From positions 1-19,999 of the forward strand of contig JACGUK010000023.1 of assembly GCA_024256265.1 (NCBI GenBank): a DNA stretch of 19,999 bases, in the 5' to 3' direction. The stretch is from an archaeon (lineage in GTDB: Archaea > Thermoproteota > Nitrososphaeria > Nitrososphaerales > JACAEJ01). The notes beneath the pieces are model-generated. The model worked only from the letters and a program-made list of their open reading frames with translations. It searched no databases and had not been told where the DNA came from. Made by a program: the position numbers and the translations under genes. This document shows, piece after piece, positions 9,442 to 17,444 of this stretch; position 1 is the first letter of the stretch; every line of letters starts with the position of its first letter.

Positions 9442-10902
9442 ATGACTATTCAATCTCGATACCCAACGAATAAGATAAGTGAAGTAGAGTATAGAATAGA
9501 GACTAATGCAAAAGAAGGGATGAAGGTACCAGTAACCATCTATGCAGATGAAAATTTGCTCAGCAAGATGCTCACAGATAGAACTATAGACCAAGCAGTT
9601 AACGTGAGTTACTTACCGGGAGTCTATAAGCATGTAATAGTGCTTCCAGATGGTCATGAAGGATATGGTTTTCCTATAGGGGGTGTTGCTGCTACAGATT
9701 TTGATACAGGAGTAATATCTCCAGGTGGTGTTGGCTATGACATAAATTGTGGTGTCCGTCTTGTTCGAACTGATCTGACTGAGAAAGAAGTTAGACCAAA
9801 GCTCAGAGAATTGCTAAGAGAACTGTTCAGAGCTATCCCCTCAGGTCTAGGAAGCACAGGTCAGATAAAGTTGAGCATCAATCAATTGGATCAAGTACTT
9901 AGCGATGGTGTGAGATGGGCTATAAAAAATGGCTATGGATGGGAAGAGGATGCTGAGTTTTGTGAAGAGAATGGTACCATGAAGGGGGCTGATCCTAGCA
10001 AAGTTTCATCTACAGCAAAGTCAAGAGGAGCACCACAGCTAGGTAGCTTAGGCTCTGGAAACCATTTCCTTGAAGTACAATTGGTTGATAGGATATTCAA
10101 TAAGGATGCTGCCAATGAGTTTGGCATAACACAAGCTGGTCAAGTTGTAATGCTTATTCATACAGGCTCAAGAGGCTTAGGACATCAAGTATGCAGTGAT
10201 TACCTAAGAGTCATGGAGGTTGCTGTGCATAAGTACAATATCTATCTCCCTGACAGAGAGCTTGCTTGTGCTCCAAACAATTCAAAAGAAGCTGAGGATT
10301 ATAAGAAAGCCATGACTGCAGCTCTAAACTATGCATGGTCAAACCGCCAGATGATAACTCATTGGACTAGAAAGGCTTTCGAAAAAGTATTCAAAGCATC
10401 AGAAAAAGACCTTAACATGAGGCTTGTATACGATGTAGCTCATAACATAGCAAAATTGGAGGAGCATTCTATAAATGGTGTAAAGAAGAAAGTGGTTGTG
10501 CATAGAAAGGGTGCTACTAGAGCTTTTGCTCCTGGAAGTTCAGCTATACCAAATGCTTATAGAGATATAGGCCAGCCAGTGCTCATCCCAGGTTCTATGG
10601 GAACTGCAAGTTGGCTCCTCGTTGGTACTCCTAAAGCTATGGAGTTGAGCTTTGGCTCTACAGCTCATGGCGCTGGAAGGATGATGTCAAGGGCAGCAGC
10701 TATAAAGGCTTACCCTGCAAGTGAGATTAAGAGGAAGCTTGAGAATAGAGGGATTCTTATCGAAGCTGCTAGTTGGAAAGGGGTTGCTGAGGAAGCTCCT
10801 GAAGCATATAAGGATGTAGACTCTGTAGCCGAAGTCTCCCATAAAGTAGGGATAGCAACAAAAGTGGCAAGACTAATACCTATAGGAGTTGTGAAAGGAT
10901 AA
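9442..10902 (+). CDS. rtcB: RtcB, tRNA-splicing RNA ligase
   Basis: The 486-residue protein is a complete RtcB without an intein. It ligates 2',3'-cyclic phosphate and 5'-OH RNA ends using GTP and Mn2+, the second step of archaeal intron splicing. Metal and nucleotide residues are in place by family comparison: D100 and C103 in SPGGVGYDINCGVRL, H208 in GSLGSGNHFLEV, H240 in MLIHTGSRGLGH, H334 in YDVAHNIAKLEEH, and the guanylylated H409 in STAHGAGRMMSR. A GGTGA lies 7 nt before the start. The window contains five BHB introns whose exons this enzyme would join, and the endA gene is 4.5 kb away. Confidence 0.97.
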   Translation: MTIQSRYPTNKISEVEYRIETNAKEGMKVPVTIYADENLLSKMLTDRTIDQAVNVSYLPGVYKHVIVLPDGHEGYGFPIGGVAATDFDTGVISPGGVGYDINCGVRLVRTDLTEKEVRPKLRELLRELFRAIPSGLGSTGQIKLSINQLDQVLSDGVRWAIKNGYGWEEDAEFCEENGTMKGADPSKVSSTAKSRGAPQLGSLGSGNHFLEVQLVDRIFNKDAANEFGITQAGQVVMLIHTGSRGLGHQVCSDYLRVMEVAVHKYNIYLPDRELACAPNNSKEAEDYKKAMTAALNYAWSNRQMITHWTRKAFEKVFKASEKDLNMRLVYDVAHNIAKLEEHSINGVKKKVVVHRKGATRAFAPGSSAIPNAYRDIGQPVLIPGSMGTASWLLVGTPKAMELSFGSTAHGAGRMMSRAAAIKAYPASEIKRKLENRGILIEAASWKGVAEEAPEAYKDVDSVAEVSHKVGIATKVARLIPIGVVKG

Positions 10903-10906
10903 AACA

Positions 10907-10915
10907 TTTTTTTTT
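10907..10915 (+). terminator. T-run terminator after rtcB
   Basis: Nine consecutive T residues begin 5 bp past the rtcB stop. A poly-T tract without a hairpin is the normal archaeal termination signal. Confidence 0.6.
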
Positions 10916-11063
10916 ATCAAAAAGAATATTAGAAAAATAATCTAACAAGAGCAAAATATAAAAAAGAAAGCAAAAGGAATCAAATAGTTTGTAAAGAATA
11001 ATATAATTCAATATGAAAAAATATTTAGGCTAGTTTATTTCTTACCTTTGAGTCGAGAATATA

Positions 11064-12395
11064 ATGTCTGAACCCTCATCGGACTTCAAGATAGAAGATA
11101 AGGTACAGCTATACAAGAATATCTTCCCCTCTGGTGATATACCAAGGACAGTTTGGGACTTCAAAACTGTTCCTATGGACTTGCCTGATGAGATTTATAT
11201 AACTGATACTACTTTCAGAGATGGGCAACAGGCTAGAGAACCCTACACAGTAGATCAGATGGTTACTATTTTCGACCTTTTGAATAGACTTGGCGGTCCA
11301 AAAGGCATCATAAGATGGACCGAATTCTTCCCCTATACAAATAGGGATAGATTAGCCATAAAAGAGATCAGAGAGAAAGGCTACGAATATCCAAAGGTTA
11401 CAGGATGGATGAGGGCTAAGAAGGAAGATTTACAATTGATAAAGGAGATGAAATTAGAGGAGACAGGCATGCTTGCCTCCATTTCAGATTACCATATTCT
11501 CCATAAGTTCGGTCTAAGCAGAAGCCAAGTCATAGAGAAGTATCTTGATGTATGTGAGGAGACCCTTAAATCAGGCATATCCATACGTTGCCACTTGGAA
11601 GATGTAACAAGAGCAGATTTTTATGGTACAGTTATTCCCTTTGTAAAGTGCCTTATACGCCTTGAGGAAAAGTATAATCTCCCTGTTAAGGTGCGTCTCA
11701 GCGATACCTTGGGCGTTGGTCTACCTTACCCTGAAGCAGCATTGCCAAGAAGCATACCAAAGATGGTGCATGGGCTCATTCATGATGCAGGATTGCCCCA
11801 CGATAGGCTAGAATTTCATGGTCATAACGACTTTCATAAAGGAGTGGTTAATGCAACTACTGCCTGGCTTTATGGTTGTACTTACAACAATTGCACCCTA
11901 CTGTCAATAGGTGAAAGGGCTGGAAATACACCTCTTGAAGCTATGGTTATAGAGTACATTCAATTGAAGGGTACAAGTAATGGTATGGATACAAAAGTCA
12001 TAAGTGAGATAGCAGACTTTTATGAGAGCATAGAATACGAAATTCCTTCATACTACCCTCTTATAGGAAAGAACTTTACTGTCACAAGGGCAGGTGTTCA
12101 TGCTGATGGTATACTTAAAGATGCAGAGATATACTTGCCTTTTGATACAGAGAAAATATTGGGCAAGCCTCCTAAGATCGCCATTACACCTTACTCTGGG
12201 GTTGCTGGCATAGTATTCTGGATCAATCAATACTTTCGATTAAATAGAAGCGAAAGAATAGGCAAGGATAATCAAAAAGTGAAGAAAATATATGAATGGG
12301 TTGAGAAGCAGTATTCTAAAGGTAGGATGACAGCTATTTCAGATAAGGAGATGGAGAAGCAAGTTAAGAAGCATTTCCCTGAACTCATAAAATGA
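11064..12395 (+). CDS. Re-citrate synthase-like enzyme (HMGL/isopropylmalate synthase family)
   Basis: The 443-residue protein is a TIM-barrel acyltransferase of the DRE/HMGL family. It shows the N-terminal metal and catalytic motif DTTFRDGQQAREPYT (residues 48-62), the second acidic/arginine strand VKVRLSDTLGVGLPYP, metal-binding H252 and H254 in FHGHNDFHKG, and GERAGNTPLE. The overall pattern, including RLGGPKGIIRWTEFF and WLYGC, resembles what I remember of clostridial Re-citrate synthase rather than LeuA. It lacks the long regulatory domain of isopropylmalate synthase. The likely reaction is acetyl-CoA plus oxaloacetate to citrate; homocitrate or citramalate synthesis are alternatives. 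It is monocistronic. Confidence 0.68.
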   Translation: MSEPSSDFKIEDKVQLYKNIFPSGDIPRTVWDFKTVPMDLPDEIYITDTTFRDGQQAREPYTVDQMVTIFDLLNRLGGPKGIIRWTEFFPYTNRDRLAIKEIREKGYEYPKVTGWMRAKKEDLQLIKEMKLEETGMLASISDYHILHKFGLSRSQVIEKYLDVCEETLKSGISIRCHLEDVTRADFYGTVIPFVKCLIRLEEKYNLPVKVRLSDTLGVGLPYPEAALPRSIPKMVHGLIHDAGLPHDRLEFHGHNDFHKGVVNATTAWLYGCTYNNCTLLSIGERAGNTPLEAMVIEYIQLKGTSNGMDTKVISEIADFYESIEYEIPSYYPLIGKNFTVTRAGVHADGILKDAEIYLPFDTEKILGKPPKIAITPYSGVAGIVFWINQYFRLNRSERIGKDNQKVKKIYEWVEKQYSKGRMTAISDKEMEKQVKKHFPELIK

Positions 12396-12918
12396 GAGGA
12401 TCATTTTATTATTGTGTTGCTGACATTGTCCCATACACCCGAATTTGAAGGGTTAGGCTATGGGAATGGGTGAGTTCGTGATCTTTGAAAATTAGGCCGA
12501 AATCTTTTAGTTTTTTGTATAGGCTAAAAAGTGACGCTACCACTGTTGCTATACTTGCTGCTAGTTGTATTACAGTTCTAATCCATTCTGCTTATTCGAA
12601 CATTTTTGTTCAAGCATGAATCGCACTTTTACTAAATAAGAGATTCTCATACGACTTTTAATCATTGAATAATATACTTGTTTTGAATGAAATAACATCG
12701 TTGAGAGATAACTATTCACTGGAAACATTTCATTTGGTGATTAAATCACAAAAGAAAAGCAAGAAAAAGGTAAGAAGGTTATTATATGGGGGCTATGCCT
12801 CGACGGATAGGAGGATGATCCAAAAACGAAAATAACATTAAGGAGAGAACTAAAACTAAAAAGAGAAAAAGGTCGATTAAACTTGCACTATGCTTTCATA
12901 TGAGGAGGTAATAAAGAG
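12396..12918. other. 523-bp gap with a hairpin and one short ORF
   Basis: The AT-rich gap separates the citrate-synthase-like gene from the surface-protein gene. It contains the inverted repeat CCCATA (12430-12435)/TATGGG (12459-12464) with an inner ACCC/GGGT stem, and a possible 44-codon frame at 12485-12619 (separate entry). Its last 20 bp carry the strong GGAGGT of the next gene. I see nothing else convincing. Confidence 0.6.
12485..12619 (+). CDS. Possible small secreted or membrane peptide (or gene remnant)
   Basis: From TTG at 12485 a 44-residue frame has a basic N-terminus (MKIRPKSFSFLYRLKSD) followed by a hydrophobic run of about 17 residues (TTVAILAASCITVLIHS) and ends in VQA, where a signal peptide would be cut. 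The next real gene also has a signal peptide ending in VQA. It may be a peptide, the start of a decayed secreted-protein gene, or chance. No clear Shine-Dalgarno is present. Confidence 0.25.
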   Translation: MKIRPKSFSFLYRLKSDATTVAILAASCITVLIHSAYSNIFVQA

Positions 12919-14706
12919 ATGAAAGTGAGGAAAATGGCAATGGTGCTGTCACCACTATTGACTGTGGCTCTGGTTCTCTCGCTGGTAGCGGTGATTATGC
13001 CAGTGACCCCCGTACAGGCAAACGAGGATGGCAACCGAGTGAGTCAGGGAAACCTAGAATGGGCTCCGATGTATTTGAATGGCACACTTAACAAAATACT
13101 GCTCACAAATTGCCCTGAGACTGTTTCCTTTGCATGGGAAGGAGGAAATCCGGAACTAACCAGGTATGCCTATGAGGGCGATGATAATGTTTGCTTCACA
13201 GTGACATTCCAGAATTTGGACGCCGCTGACCATGACTTGGACTTCACCTGGTCAGAAGGTGACATTGCCGATGCGGATTGGACGATAACCCCTAACCCAG
13301 TAACCATTCCGGCAGGCGAGACCGTCAATGTAACCTTTTGCTGCGACTTGTCAGACACCACAACCTATCCCACTTTCCCGCATGGTGATTGGTATGGCGC
13401 ATACCGAGCAATGTTCGATATTGGCTACGACAGTCTCTATGCCACACTTATGAACTTTTGGGTCACTGTTTTGCCCACAGATGGCAGCGTGCCGGTGATG
13501 CCAACGGTTGCAGTGGGGTTTGTCGACTTCATCGACGAAATATTTATGGTTAATAATATGAGGATCGCCCCATGGATAGAAGGGATGCACAGGTGGAATG
13601 CTCTCTTCGATGCGTATTCCCATGATCGTTTCTTCGACAATTATGGGTGCGGCTTATTGAGGATCTATGATGAGACCACGTGGACTTCTGAGGCGTTCGT
13701 CTGGATTGAGTCAGAGATGAACATATTAAATGATGGCAGCGTGGAGATCATCTGCCACGCCACCCTCACAGGTGGCTTGAGCGATGTCACTTGGGACCGC
13801 ACCTGGTATTTCACTCATGACGACCCCTATGTCAAGGTGACGGATGTCTATACAAACACTGGCATCGACCCTGTGAGCTTCTCTATATCCACTTATCTCA
13901 TTAACTATGCTGAGCATGAGGCTGCGATAAAGGTCCCCGGTGTCCACGATGAGTGGACGATGTTTTACACTTACGACAGCTCGGAGGATGCATACTATCC
14001 CACAATACCTCCAATAATGGCGGATGATATGGCGGCACCTGTGATCTTTGAGTGCGATGGGGCAGGCTACTACTCAGCGGAGGCACCCGGTGCCTTTGGT
14101 GCCGTTGTATTCCCCGCCGAGGTGCCATATTATAACAGCACCGGGGTATATCCTGACCAGGCTTGCCAAGTTCGCCGGGGAACTACACTCTTCTTTGCCT
14201 ACCCTGATCATAATGGACAAGTCTTCAGCTACAGGTACGACTTAGCTGCTGGCGAGTCGAAGACAATTAAGATTTACTATGTATTCACCGGCGGCTATCC
14301 CAGCTCCAGCTACGGTCCTGAGGAAGAGCTCTACGATGTGGTCTACTCCCTTCTCTCCTGGCCAGCACCTGCCATAAGCTTGAGTCCAGATGAAGGAGTT
14401 GGCGCCTTTGCCATTGGGGGTCAAGGATTCACGTGGAATTCAAAGATAACCATCACCTGGGATGGCACGCCGATGTCTAGCGCCACAACCACCGATTGGG
14501 CTGGTAAGTTCAGCGCTGTGGTCTCTGTGCCGGAGCAAACCGAGCCCGGCGACCATACTGTGACAGCCAGCGATGGCATTAACTCGGCATCTGCTACCTT
14601 CACCGTGCCCGATATGATCGTGCCTTCAGGACTAAGCATCGCTGCCATAGTATTAGCAACGATTGCCATTGTTGCTTCCATATACACTCTGGCGAGGAAG
14701 AAATAG
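12919..14706 (+). CDS. Secreted, C-terminally anchored beta-sandwich surface protein
   Basis: The 595-residue protein has a signal peptide (basic MKVRKM, hydrophobic core, cleavage after PVQA near residue 34) and a C-terminal membrane helix (about 569-591) ending in ARKK, so it should face outward. Early residues (about 60-150) look like an Ig-type fold (ITPNPVTIPAGETVNVTF). Residues about 485-565 form an IPT/TIG-like Ig domain with ISLSPDEGVGAFAIGGQGF and EPGDHTVTASDG. The middle is aromatic- and acid-rich, a possible ligand or S-layer contact region. A strong GGAGGT precedes the ATG by 9 nt. Codons are visibly richer in G and C than the neighbouring genes (one sampled 60-bp line is 37/60 GC), suggesting horizontal transfer. 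No enzymatic motif is seen. Confidence 0.88.
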   Translation: MKVRKMAMVLSPLLTVALVLSLVAVIMPVTPVQANEDGNRVSQGNLEWAPMYLNGTLNKILLTNCPETVSFAWEGGNPELTRYAYEGDDNVCFTVTFQNLDAADHDLDFTWSEGDIADADWTITPNPVTIPAGETVNVTFCCDLSDTTTYPTFPHGDWYGAYRAMFDIGYDSLYATLMNFWVTVLPTDGSVPVMPTVAVGFVDFIDEIFMVNNMRIAPWIEGMHRWNALFDAYSHDRFFDNYGCGLLRIYDETTWTSEAFVWIESEMNILNDGSVEIICHATLTGGLSDVTWDRTWYFTHDDPYVKVTDVYTNTGIDPVSFSISTYLINYAEHEAAIKVPGVHDEWTMFYTYDSSEDAYYPTIPPIMADDMAAPVIFECDGAGYYSAEAPGAFGAVVFPAEVPYYNSTGVYPDQACQVRRGTTLFFAYPDHNGQVFSYRYDLAAGESKTIKIYYVFTGGYPSSSYGPEEELYDVVYSLLSWPAPAISLSPDEGVGAFAIGGQGFTWNSKITITWDGTPMSSATTTDWAGKFSAVVSVPEQTEPGDHTVTASDGINSASATFTVPDMIVPSGLSIAAIVLATIAIVASIYTLARKK

Positions 14707-14848
14707 CGGTAAAAGGTTAGACAAGGCGGCATATTTCCCGGTGGGGTGCCCCGCAAAGCCATTTGGACGAACGAAGTGAGCCTCAAAGGCCTGCCCCTGC
14801 CTAAAGATACCGATACTTTTTCTATGATGTTATTATCTATCAGGCTTC
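14707..14848. terminator. GC-rich 3' flank with nested hairpin
   Basis: The region between the convergent surface-protein and mobB genes keeps the GC-rich composition of the former. Around 14726-14753, GCGGCA pairs with TGCC..GC and an inner CCC/GGG stem forms, a plausible transcription-stopping or RNA-stabilising hairpin. A second small stem GCCT-CAA-AGGC follows. A minus-strand frame that crosses it is discussed under rejected items. Confidence 0.35.
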
Positions 14849-15418
14849 TTACAACTCTTGCATATTTCTCTTTTCCCAATCAAGCCTCCCTCTTATGTGA
14901 TCCTTAACCAATTGTATGAGCCTTCTTCCTTCGCTATACATATCTATTATAGGAGCTTCTGGATTGAAAATCTTTGACTTAAGCTTTGCAACCTTGCCAG
15001 TAATGGCTATTATTGGATGGACTGTGCCATTCAAAGTCCTTTCTAAATCTTCCTCGTTCTCAGCTGTTATTATCTTAAAAACATCACTTCTCTTAGCGAT
15101 GAGGGAATGAAAGCCTTCTAAGAATATTATATCCAATTCTTCTAAATCTTTAATTGTTTCTTCTAAATCTATTTGCTGATCTTCCTTCTTCTTTATTGTG
15201 GCAACTTCTGTTGGAGCCATGATCGCAATTATCTTCGCTCCTGCCTGAGCATACCTCCATGTATCCTTGCCCTTTGTATCGATAGTAAAATCTTGTTCAT
15301 GAACGTGCTTGATGGAACCTATGCTGAAGCCTTCTCTGCTTAGATTAGATATTAAATACTCTATGGTGGAAGTCTTTCCAGAGCCACTTCTCCCTATAAC
15401 AGCCACTATCTTTGCCAT
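14849..15418 (-). CDS. mobB: MobB, molybdopterin-guanine dinucleotide synthesis GTPase
   Basis: The 189-residue protein has a P-loop GRSGSGKT at residues 9-16, the family segments STIEYLISNLSREGFSIGSIKHVHEQDF, the KGKDTWRYAQAGAK stretch and DIIFLEGFHSL (Walker-B-like). MobB binds GTP and assists attachment of the nucleotide to molybdopterin for molybdenum or tungsten enzymes. It converges with the surface-protein gene and is followed by nothing on its own strand. MoaD at 5740 may serve the same pathway. It starts about 47 bp downstream of endA and could be cotranscribed with it. Confidence 0.93.
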   Translation of the reverse strand: MAKIVAVIGRSGSGKTSTIEYLISNLSREGFSIGSIKHVHEQDFTIDTKGKDTWRYAQAGAKIIAIMAPTEVATIKKKEDQQIDLEETIKDLEELDIIFLEGFHSLIAKRSDVFKIITAENEEDLERTLNGTVHPIIAITGKVAKLKSKIFNPEAPIIDMYSEGRRLIQLVKDHIRGRLDWEKRNMQEL

Positions 15419-15465
15419 GATAAATCATTAACTAAGAGTATTTTAGCAACCAAGTTGGATTAAAA

Positions 15466-16005
15466 CTAATCCTTATAGGGCTTCCAACCTTGAACCTTGT
15501 AGTATATGACTTCTCCCCGTCTTTCTATGACTGCTAAGACTGCCTCCTTTCCCATCCTTCCTATCTGGCTCACGATTTCACTCATCTCTTTAATAGACTT
15601 CTTTGTGCCTTCATTTAAGCCATAAACAACGTACTTTGCCGATTTAGAGCCGTACTCGCCTCTATCATATACCCTAAAATCAACACCAAATCCAAATCCT
15701 TCACGAACTACGTATCCACGACTTCTTAAATCTCTATAAATTAAAAATCTAGTCCATGCATTAGCATCTCTTAATAAAGCGAAGTCTAAAAGCTCGTTAA
15801 CAGAAATTTCTTTCTCTTCTTTCAACACTCTTAACTTGTTACTGTATAGCAAGAAAATAGCCTCATAGTCCTTTAACAAGAGCTTGCCATTCAGCTCTTC
15901 TCCATAACCTCTTGTCCTTAACTCCTCTTGGGCTTTTTTATCATCGATAATGACGCCTTTATCTGTCAAATACCCTGTCAATACATAGGGGATTTCCTCG
16001 ACCAT
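15466..16005 (-). CDS. endA: tRNA-splicing endonuclease subunit EndA, catalytic His replaced
   Basis: The 179-residue protein matches archaeal EndA in length and in the C-terminal nuclease fold: RDLRSRGYVVREGFGFGVDFRVYDRG, KYVVYGL, and GKEAVLAVIERRGEVIYYKV. Against my recollection of the Methanocaldococcus enzyme, the catalytic Tyr (Y113) and Lys (K153) are present, but the catalytic His of the HSxYLV motif aligns with S122 (SAKYVV). The likely reading is the structural subunit of a heterotetrameric (alpha2 beta2) endonuclease, with the active subunit encoded elsewhere. Such enzymes accept non-canonical BHB introns, which this window has. It is divergent from mtnA across 115 bp. An active single-subunit enzyme with another acid/base residue cannot be excluded. 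Confidence 0.88.
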   Translation of the reverse strand: MVEEIPYVLTGYLTDKGVIIDDKKAQEELRTRGYGEELNGKLLLKDYEAIFLLYSNKLRVLKEEKEISVNELLDFALLRDANAWTRFLIYRDLRSRGYVVREGFGFGVDFRVYDRGEYGSKSAKYVVYGLNEGTKKSIKEMSEIVSQIGRMGKEAVLAVIERRGEVIYYKVQGWKPYKD

Positions 16006-16120
16006 AATAGATCATATGTGCAAACACTTATTAAAGTAAAAACTTTCGTATTTTGTACAATTTTTCGTCTGAAAGATGCATTTAAATGTATCAGAACAGA
16101 GAACAGAAGGTTAGATAAAT

Positions 16121-17205
16121 ATGGTTTGGGACGGTTTTGCTCAAAGGACTGTAAGATGGGAAGAAGAAGCGATTATGTTGATAGACCAAAGGAAGTTGCC
16201 AAACAAGCTAATCTTCATAAAATGTAACAATCATCATCAAGTAGTAGATGCCATTAAGAACATGAGCATAAGAGGAGCTCCCGCCATTGGAGCAATAGCA
16301 GGCATGTCCCTTGCATTGATAGCCCGTAAATCTAAGGCTAAGACGAAAAAAGACCTGATCAAAGAGCTTGAATTTGCAGCAAAGGATCTAAAGGCTACAC
16401 GCCCAACAGGCATGAACTTGTTTTGGGCTATTCAAAGAGTCATGAATAAAGCATACTCTAGTGAAGGGAGGATAGAAGATATCGTTGAAGCAATTAAGAA
16501 GGAGGCTATTCTCATTACAGAAGAGGATGTAGAAATAAACCATGCTATAGGAAAGAATGGTGCTAAAATTCTTGAAGATGGAGATGTAGTGCTAACCCAC
16601 TGTAAATGGTCTAGTTTTCACTAGGTCAGCAGAATGCGGGAGCACTGGCAACAGTCGGCTATGGCACAGCTCTAGGGGTAGTAAGGGCAGCAATAGAGCA
16701 GGGAAAATGCATAAGAGTAATAGCCACAGAGACTAGACCTGCACTTCAAGGGGCAAGGCTGACATGCTTTGAACTCAAAAATGATGATATTCCTGTTACT
16801 TTGATAGTAGATTCTATGGTGGGTTATGTAATGCAAAAAGGATTGGTGAATAAAGTCATAGTAGGCGCTGATAGGGTAACAAAGCTTGGTCATACGTTCA
16901 ACAAGATAGGAACTTATCAGATGGCAGTTCTAGCTCAAAGGCATAATGTACCATTTTATGTTGCTGCACCTAAATCAACTTTCGATGTTAATACTAGATA
17001 CGAGGATGTAATAATTGAGGAGAGGAGCTTAGATGAAATGGTTATGATAAATAGGAAAAGAATAGCACCTAAAGGAATAAATGTATTGAATCCTGCCTTT
17101 GACATGACTCCACCAGAGCTGATAACTGGAATAATAACAGAAAAAGGATTATTATTACATCCGTTTGAAGAATCGATCAAGAAACTTCTCATAAATCATG
17201 GTTAA
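16121..17205 (+). CDS. mtnA: MtnA, methylthioribose-1-phosphate isomerase, interrupted by a BHB intron
   Basis: Two frames, 16121-16605 and 16635-17205, join into one 351-residue protein when the 29-nt insertion 16606-16634 is removed. The product is an MtnA/eIF2B-like isomerase acting in methionine salvage: RTVRWEEEAIMLIDQRKLP at the start, MSIRGAPAIGAIAG, RPTGMNLFWAI, catalytic C161 in THCNAGALAT and catalytic D241 in VGADRV, then NKIGTYQMA. The junction falls inside the codon for N162, right after the catalytic Cys. Unspliced mRNA would stop at TAG 16622-16624 and give a 167-residue fragment without half the active site. The length equals that of intact relatives. Related ribose-1,5-bisphosphate isomerase activity is an alternative, less supported by the N-terminus. 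Confidence 0.92.
16606..16634 (+). other. Archaeal BHB intron in mtnA mRNA (29 nt)
   Basis: The insert has every part of an endonuclease target. Exon CTGT (16600-16603) pairs with intron GCAG (16629-16632) as the 4-bp central helix, with one wobble. The two 3-nt bulges are AA|A (16604-16606) and AA|T (16633-16635). The inner helix TGGTCTAG (16607-16614)/CTAGGTCA (16621-16628) forms eight pairs including two G-T wobbles, closed by the 6-nt loop TTTTCA. The outer side is weak (CCC 16596-16598 with GGG 16638-16640). The exact cut can slide by two bases without changing the product, but only this register fits the bulges. Confidence 0.9.
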
Positions 17206-17218: not shown

Positions 17219-17270
17219 CGAGAGGTTCAAATTTAGATTGGGCCCGTGGTCTAGCACGGATAAGACGCAG

Positions 17271-17284
17271 AGTTCATCACGTAA
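17271..17284 (+). other. tRNA-Arg intron 1, non-canonical position 29/30 (14 nt)
   Basis: Exon ACGC pairs with intron ACGT over three of four positions (one C-A mismatch next to the 5' bulge). The bulges are AG|A and AA|G, and the terminal loop is 7 nt. Its layout equals that of the 14-nt intron in tRNA-Lys. Removal restores stem CAGGC/GCCTG. Confidence 0.72.
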
Positions 17285-17292
17285 GCCTTCGG

Positions 17293-17304
17293 TGCTCTGA
17301 AGAG
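17293..17304 (+). other. tRNA-Arg intron 2, canonical position 37/38 (12 nt)
   Basis: Exon CTTC (32-35) pairs perfectly with intron GAAG. The bulges are GG|T and AG|A with a 5-nt loop. The outer helix is the anticodon stem, which needs prior removal of intron 1. Confidence 0.76.
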
Positions 17305-17444
17305 AGCCTGAAATCCGGGGTTCAAATCCCTGCGGGCCCGCTACTTTAAGAATCTCATCTGAATTAGTGCTCTTATAGGGTTAATAACTTAAATAATCTC
17401 TAATGATATTGCTTCATAGCGAAATTTCTTTGAGAAAAAATCTG

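Follow-up and report, generated by a model that had tools for sequence, protein, structure and literature searches.

A predicted bulge-helix-bulge intron at the codon after a conserved cysteine in mtnA of archaea

The DNA analysed here, called the window, is a stretch of 19,999 nucleotides from an archaeon of the Nitrososphaerales. It carries an mtnA gene (16121 to 17205, plus strand) whose frame is interrupted at the codon following a conserved cysteine. Read without splicing, mtnA gives 167 residues with the C-terminus ...LTHCKWSSFH. Excision of 16606-16634 in silico restored an intact 351-residue MtnA that reads LTHCNAGALAT across the former break, and this product scored 403 bits against the NCBIfam MtnA model TIGR00512, which has a cut-off of 279. 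The best 120 full-length relatives listed were 58-64% identical, and several of these were named Nitrososphaerales or Nitrososphaera. The cysteine at the break, which we take to be the catalytic residue of the active site, was invariant in an alignment of exon 1 with 32 rows. The features of the locus are collected in Table 1.

Table 1. Coordinates of the split mtnA gene, its predicted intron and the genes for splicing enzymes in the window
Feature	Position	Strand	Remarks
rtcB, RNA ligase (likely exon joiner)	9442..10902	+	PF01139, 600 bits
tRNA-splicing endonuclease subunit gene	15466..16005	-	PF01974, 85 bits; PF02778, 40 bits; putatively of structural type
mtnA exon 1	16121..16605	+	161 codons up to Cys, then AA of the following codon
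Central helix, 5' strand CTGT, in exon 1	16600..16603	+	
5' bulge AA^A, predicted cut 16605/16606	16604..16606	+	cut rule from the available text of PMC2738675
Bulge-helix-bulge (BHB) intron, 29 nt	16606..16634	+	predicted
Inner helix, 5' strand TGGTCTAG	16607..16614	+	
Inner helix, 3' strand CTAGGTCA	16621..16628	+	
Central helix, 3' strand GCAG, in intron	16629..16632	+	
3' bulge AA^T, predicted cut 16634/16635	16633..16635	+	cut rule from the available text of PMC2738675
mtnA exon 2 with stop codon	16635..17205	+	

Analysis of base pairing revealed that the insert forms a regular BHB, with a 4-bp central helix, two 3-nt bulges and an inner hairpin with 8 bp or more; RNAfold added a ninth pair to the inner helix. 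The available text of PMC2738675 places the cuts of a BHB between the second and third residues of each bulge. Since the same AA occurs at either end of the insert, excision of 16604-16632 or 16605-16633 would give the identical protein, and 16606-16634 was chosen as the intron because of this cut rule. The predicted spliced junction is ...CCCACTGTAA joined to TGCGGGAGC... The minimum-energy fold contained both the centre and the inner helix for 16580-16660 and 16590-16650, whereas that of 16570-16670 contained the hairpin only and lacked the centre. Among the lowest-energy folds of 99-nt stretches from the window and its relatives, the centre was present in two of six. These results agree with the original prediction, which had placed two mtnA frames at the same coordinates with 29 nt between them, joined them by excision into THCNAGALAT and 351 residues, and described a BHB with 4-bp central and 8-bp inner helices. 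A group I or group II intron was rejected, as the insert is 29 nt long and no catalytic RNA core was found; with gathering cut-offs, the only Rfam match in the window was a tRNA.

Directly behind mtnA there is a tRNA with inserts (17240-17341, plus strand). ARAGORN called it a tRNA-Met with a 15-nt intron; a regular tRNA-Arg(TCG) results when 17271-17284 and 17293-17304 are removed. A similar tRNA sequence is found near mtnA in loci L124-L128. The window also contains a 595-residue frame (12919-14706, plus strand) whose start looks signal-like and whose end looks hydrophobic by eye, and it has no Pfam match.

The same break was observed in relatives. A search with the exon-1 product returned 139 proteins, and among the 120 listed, 77 (the window's own included) end at the site, meaning no more than 10 residues from this Cys codon; structure played no part in the search. 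The tails of these 77 are K, N, KW.. or RW... Of 400 genomes from the class of G007, whose locus is named Nitrosopumilaceae, 313 were matched in a six-frame protein search, and among the matches listed a stop was present at the site in five genomes (G276, G264, G209, G178 and G331). In all five, an insert of 21-30 nt with the same BHB was recognized by eye. A covariance model was built from six rows. In the order of G276, which is of the Nitrososphaeria type, 23 of the 151 genomes searched with it had an mtnA with the intron and 29 had any match; in the class of Candidatus Bathyarchaeum tardum, these numbers were 8 of 256 and 20. The remaining matches were empty sites, two without MtnA and two by chance. 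The 35-nt matches in both groups were set aside as intronless mtnA genes, L148 and L150 (42 nt) were dropped because they have no MtnA match, and L151 and L164 (26-28 bits) were rejected as chance matches inside open frames of other genes. No intron was found in 195 genomes of the phylum of a Lokiarchaeota genome (Asgard) or in 197 genomes of the class of an Acidilobaceae genome; the former gave 2 matches and the latter 14, all of 35 nt and judged by this span alone, which is the size of an empty site. Absence in these large model searches is provisional because the filters were strict. A scan of the genome collection with the exon-1 alignment found none split among at least 80 loci, many of them bacterial. 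The set used below consists of 32 introns, namely that of the window and those of 31 loci (L122-L144 and L152-L159).

Excision regained LT(H/Y)CNAG(A/S)LAT and an open frame in 32 of 32 cases. The introns are 21-43 nt long; 13 have a length that is a multiple of three, and all three frames are represented. The first intron base was A in 24, T in 7 and G in 1. Intact genes have Asn at this codon, so that such variation is what is expected if the base is spliced out. The precise empty site, defined by a strict pattern, was found in 72 of 80 intronless mtnA genes. Four central pairs together with at least four inner pairs were formed by 32/32 real introns and by 44/64,000 letter shuffles. This central pairing is partly built in, because the rows were collected with the structure model and read with a pattern requiring CTGY and GC(A/G)G; this pattern cost no mtnA row and removed just two chance matches. 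For the whole structure, measured on 34 rows that include the chance matches L151 and L164, 92.8% of cells were paired, compared with 84.5% in shuffles and at most 47.4% in slid versions, and the covariation score was 0.364 against 0.208. In the same rows, the central helix was paired in 99.3% of cells, which is again partly a product of row selection, and the outer helix was weak (80.2%). Seven double-change pairs were counted, a number reached by 42 of 500 shuffles; this was one of five measures. The inner helix was also examined in 26 rows outside the model, with the arms anchored on the splice sites only. Here 144 of 156 cells were paired and 39 were double-change cells, whereas 2000 shuffles of the same test gave at most 126 and 23, respectively. 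This indicates that pairing is maintained via compensatory change among relatives. The comparison of related mtnA genes proposed with the original prediction thus yielded the same codon and the same BHB in 31 other genomes. An assembly error is not borne out, since the insert recurs across related genomes, and neither is a loss of BHB pairing in relatives, where the pairing is kept with compensatory changes.

Databases list the two halves as separate proteins, mostly unnamed or hypothetical, as would be expected if the locus were a pseudogene, encoded two separate half-proteins or contained a sequencing error. However, exon 2 had dN/dS values of 0.03-0.14 in 28 pairs formed by the window and seven close relatives, many of the dS values being saturated. 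Exon 2 is under purifying selection. Because of these values, we consider that exon 2, which lies behind a stop codon, is read in the frame given by splicing. Furthermore, the break falls at one codon in 32 loci, where the insert lengths cover all three frames and the pairing shows compensatory changes, and half-proteins would split the active-site region. A pseudogene, two half-proteins or an error is therefore very hard to believe. In translational bypassing, the ribosome would hop over the hairpin and the RNA would stay unspliced. Known bypass sites have a hairpin and an early stop after the break, and so does mtnA. Nevertheless, the take-off codon equals the landing codon in only 3 of 32 introns, its last base varies, and it would mostly encode Lys where intact genes have Asn. 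Bypassing also has no need for a constant GC(A/G)G of the intron paired with CTGY of the exon between 3-nt bulges at both junctions, and we regard it as extremely improbable. We conclude with high confidence that 16606-16634 is a BHB intron, predicted to be excised by the splicing endonuclease and sealed by RtcB, and that its removal restores the 351-residue MtnA.

Genes for both predicted enzymes lie close to mtnA. The endonuclease subunit gene is divergent to mtnA with 115 bp between them. Compared with the endonuclease of M. jannaschii (1a79), in which we take the catalytic residues to be numbers 115/125/156, the subunit of the window keeps Tyr and Lys but has Ser in place of the catalytic His. 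The copies adjacent to mtnA at 16 further loci also lack this His, and that of locus L156 has Arg for Lys. A second endonuclease copy with Tyr/His/Lys was found in the 7 genomes of relatives that were sampled. This suggests that the endonuclease is probably hetero-oligomeric, combining a catalytic subunit with the structural one whose gene adjoins mtnA. The hetero-oligomeric enzyme is the kind tied to cbf5 splicing in the available text of PMC2738675. PF01974 was present in 16 of the 16 intron genomes examined and RtcB in 15 of them, G178 being without a match. In the window and in five close relatives, rtcB, the endonuclease subunit gene and the intron-bearing mtnA form one cluster (9442-16605 in the window). 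In the mechanism that we propose, mtnA mRNA would fold into a BHB at the exon-intron borders, the hetero-oligomeric tRNA-splicing endonuclease would cut it twice, between bulge residues 2 and 3 of each bulge, and RtcB would join Cys-AA to T-GC, allowing MtnA to be made.

It was also considered whether mtnA splicing serves as a regulated switch, or whether it ties the amount of MtnA to the level of endonuclease via the neighbouring gene. The gene order would fit this idea. The endonuclease gene lies within 1.5 kb of 27 of the 32 intron-bearing mtnA genes. Four others (G274, G275, G276 and G215) have it on the mtnA contig at a distance of 1.4-2.1 kb, the copy of G275 being broken by stops, and rtcB is 3-5 kb from mtnA in the window (5 kb), G273, G282, G202, G264 and G274. 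However, the endonuclease gene also adjoins 38 of 80 intronless mtnA genes, a set that is not random, and G281 carries the intron without the endonuclease neighbour. The pairing has therefore not been linked to the intron. Examples of intronless mtnA with this neighbour are L160-L171 and L117, and at a few intronless loci the endonuclease gene is downstream of mtnA on the same strand. An MtnA tree of 112 rows required 8 changes for the intron and 11 for the neighbour; the tree was a quick build in which long branches meet and the outgroup does not fall on one side of a branch, and it does not distinguish gain from loss. The association of intron and neighbour amounted to 3 independent contrasts on supported branches, with a sign test median p of 1. 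With 38/80 intronless loci sharing the neighbour and so few contrasts, the neighbouring gene was downgraded as a cause of the intron. The mtnA/endonuclease gene pair is old. The intron itself looks old: it occurs in two classes of archaea and seems to have been lost or transferred repeatedly, and the tree would agree with either several losses of an old intron or transfers.

Stop codons inside the introns could also favour a switch. An in-frame stop was present in 29 of 32 introns, where shuffles predict 12.9, and in all 13 introns whose length is a multiple of three. Such stops would block an insert-bearing MtnA from unspliced mRNA, and may have been selected or be a by-product of the stem. 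The first bases of the stem are TGA in 19 and TAG in 4 of the 32. We gave the enrichment little weight because the sequences are related by common descent and these bases may force the stops. Altogether, a switch or a coupling to the endonuclease level is unlikely. A more elaborate form of the idea is a self-contained circuit, in which the structural subunit, widening the substrate range of the endonuclease, shares a control region with the mRNA whose splicing it assists, and intron stops make MtnA and methionine recycling report the capacity for tRNA splicing; we consider such a circuit quite unlikely. The interpretation offered with the original prediction thus survives in part: the insert is no assembly artefact by the comparison above and keeps its pairing, whereas the proposed switch on methionine salvage found no support, nothing indicating regulated or partial splicing. 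As to its role, the insert is most simply viewed as a tolerated intron that is constitutively spliced rather than as a switch.

An intron in archaeal pre-mRNA is known from cbf5 of Desulfurococcales and Sulfolobales (PMC2738675; also PMC7714728). As far as the available portions of these papers describe it, the cbf5 intron resembles that of mtnA in being a BHB in a coding region that is expected to be cut between the second and third bulge residues, in its tie to a hetero-oligomeric endonuclease, in being old with lineage-specific losses, and in its variable interior. In contrast, mtnA is another gene and occurs in other archaeal classes. The structures of cbf5 are mostly called unconventional BHBs there, whereas those of mtnA are regular, and partial cDNAs of spliced cbf5 mRNA were reported (PMC2738675), whereas splicing of mtnA is predicted from DNA. 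The Haloferax HVO_1309 mRNA also has a BHB cut by the splicing endonuclease; in the available text of PMC7714728 that BHB is in the 5' UTR and its cut was shown in vitro, whereas the BHB of mtnA is in the coding region and its cut is predicted. Introns of archaeal tRNA and rRNA share the motif and presumably the enzymes, but the host RNA of the mtnA intron is an mRNA, and its exon side is constrained by protein sequence. In eukaryotes, HAC1/XBP1 mRNA is cut by Ire1. Its exons are joined by a tRNA-type ligase, as predicted for mtnA, and it is a proven stress switch according to the available part of PMC4090602, whereas none is indicated for mtnA. Apart from the 5' UTR example that it describes itself, the 2020 paper PMC7714728 gives cbf5, in the text available, as the sole archaeal mRNA for which a BHB intron had been reported by then, and the available parts of PMC4090602 and PMC12397907 contain no further case in coding mRNA. 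An mtnA intron was not found in searches of open-licence papers, including searches for archaeal coding-mRNA introns, in line with the earlier statement that none was known. Our best reading is that mtnA is the second coding-gene family with a BHB intron in its mRNA, after cbf5.

Intron-bearing mtnA genes have been deposited as half-length proteins (e.g., P0122-P0143) that are mostly unnamed; some are called 'hypothetical protein' of Nitrososphaerales or Candidatus Methylarchaceae, and some are named MtnA. MtnA is therefore likely to be missed in metabolic reconstructions. The 32 introns are natural variants of one compact substrate for archaeal splicing endonucleases. A second coding gene with the intron at one codon in two archaeal classes would mean that the tRNA machinery is more widely used to splice mRNA, a process whose age, loss and purpose become testable.
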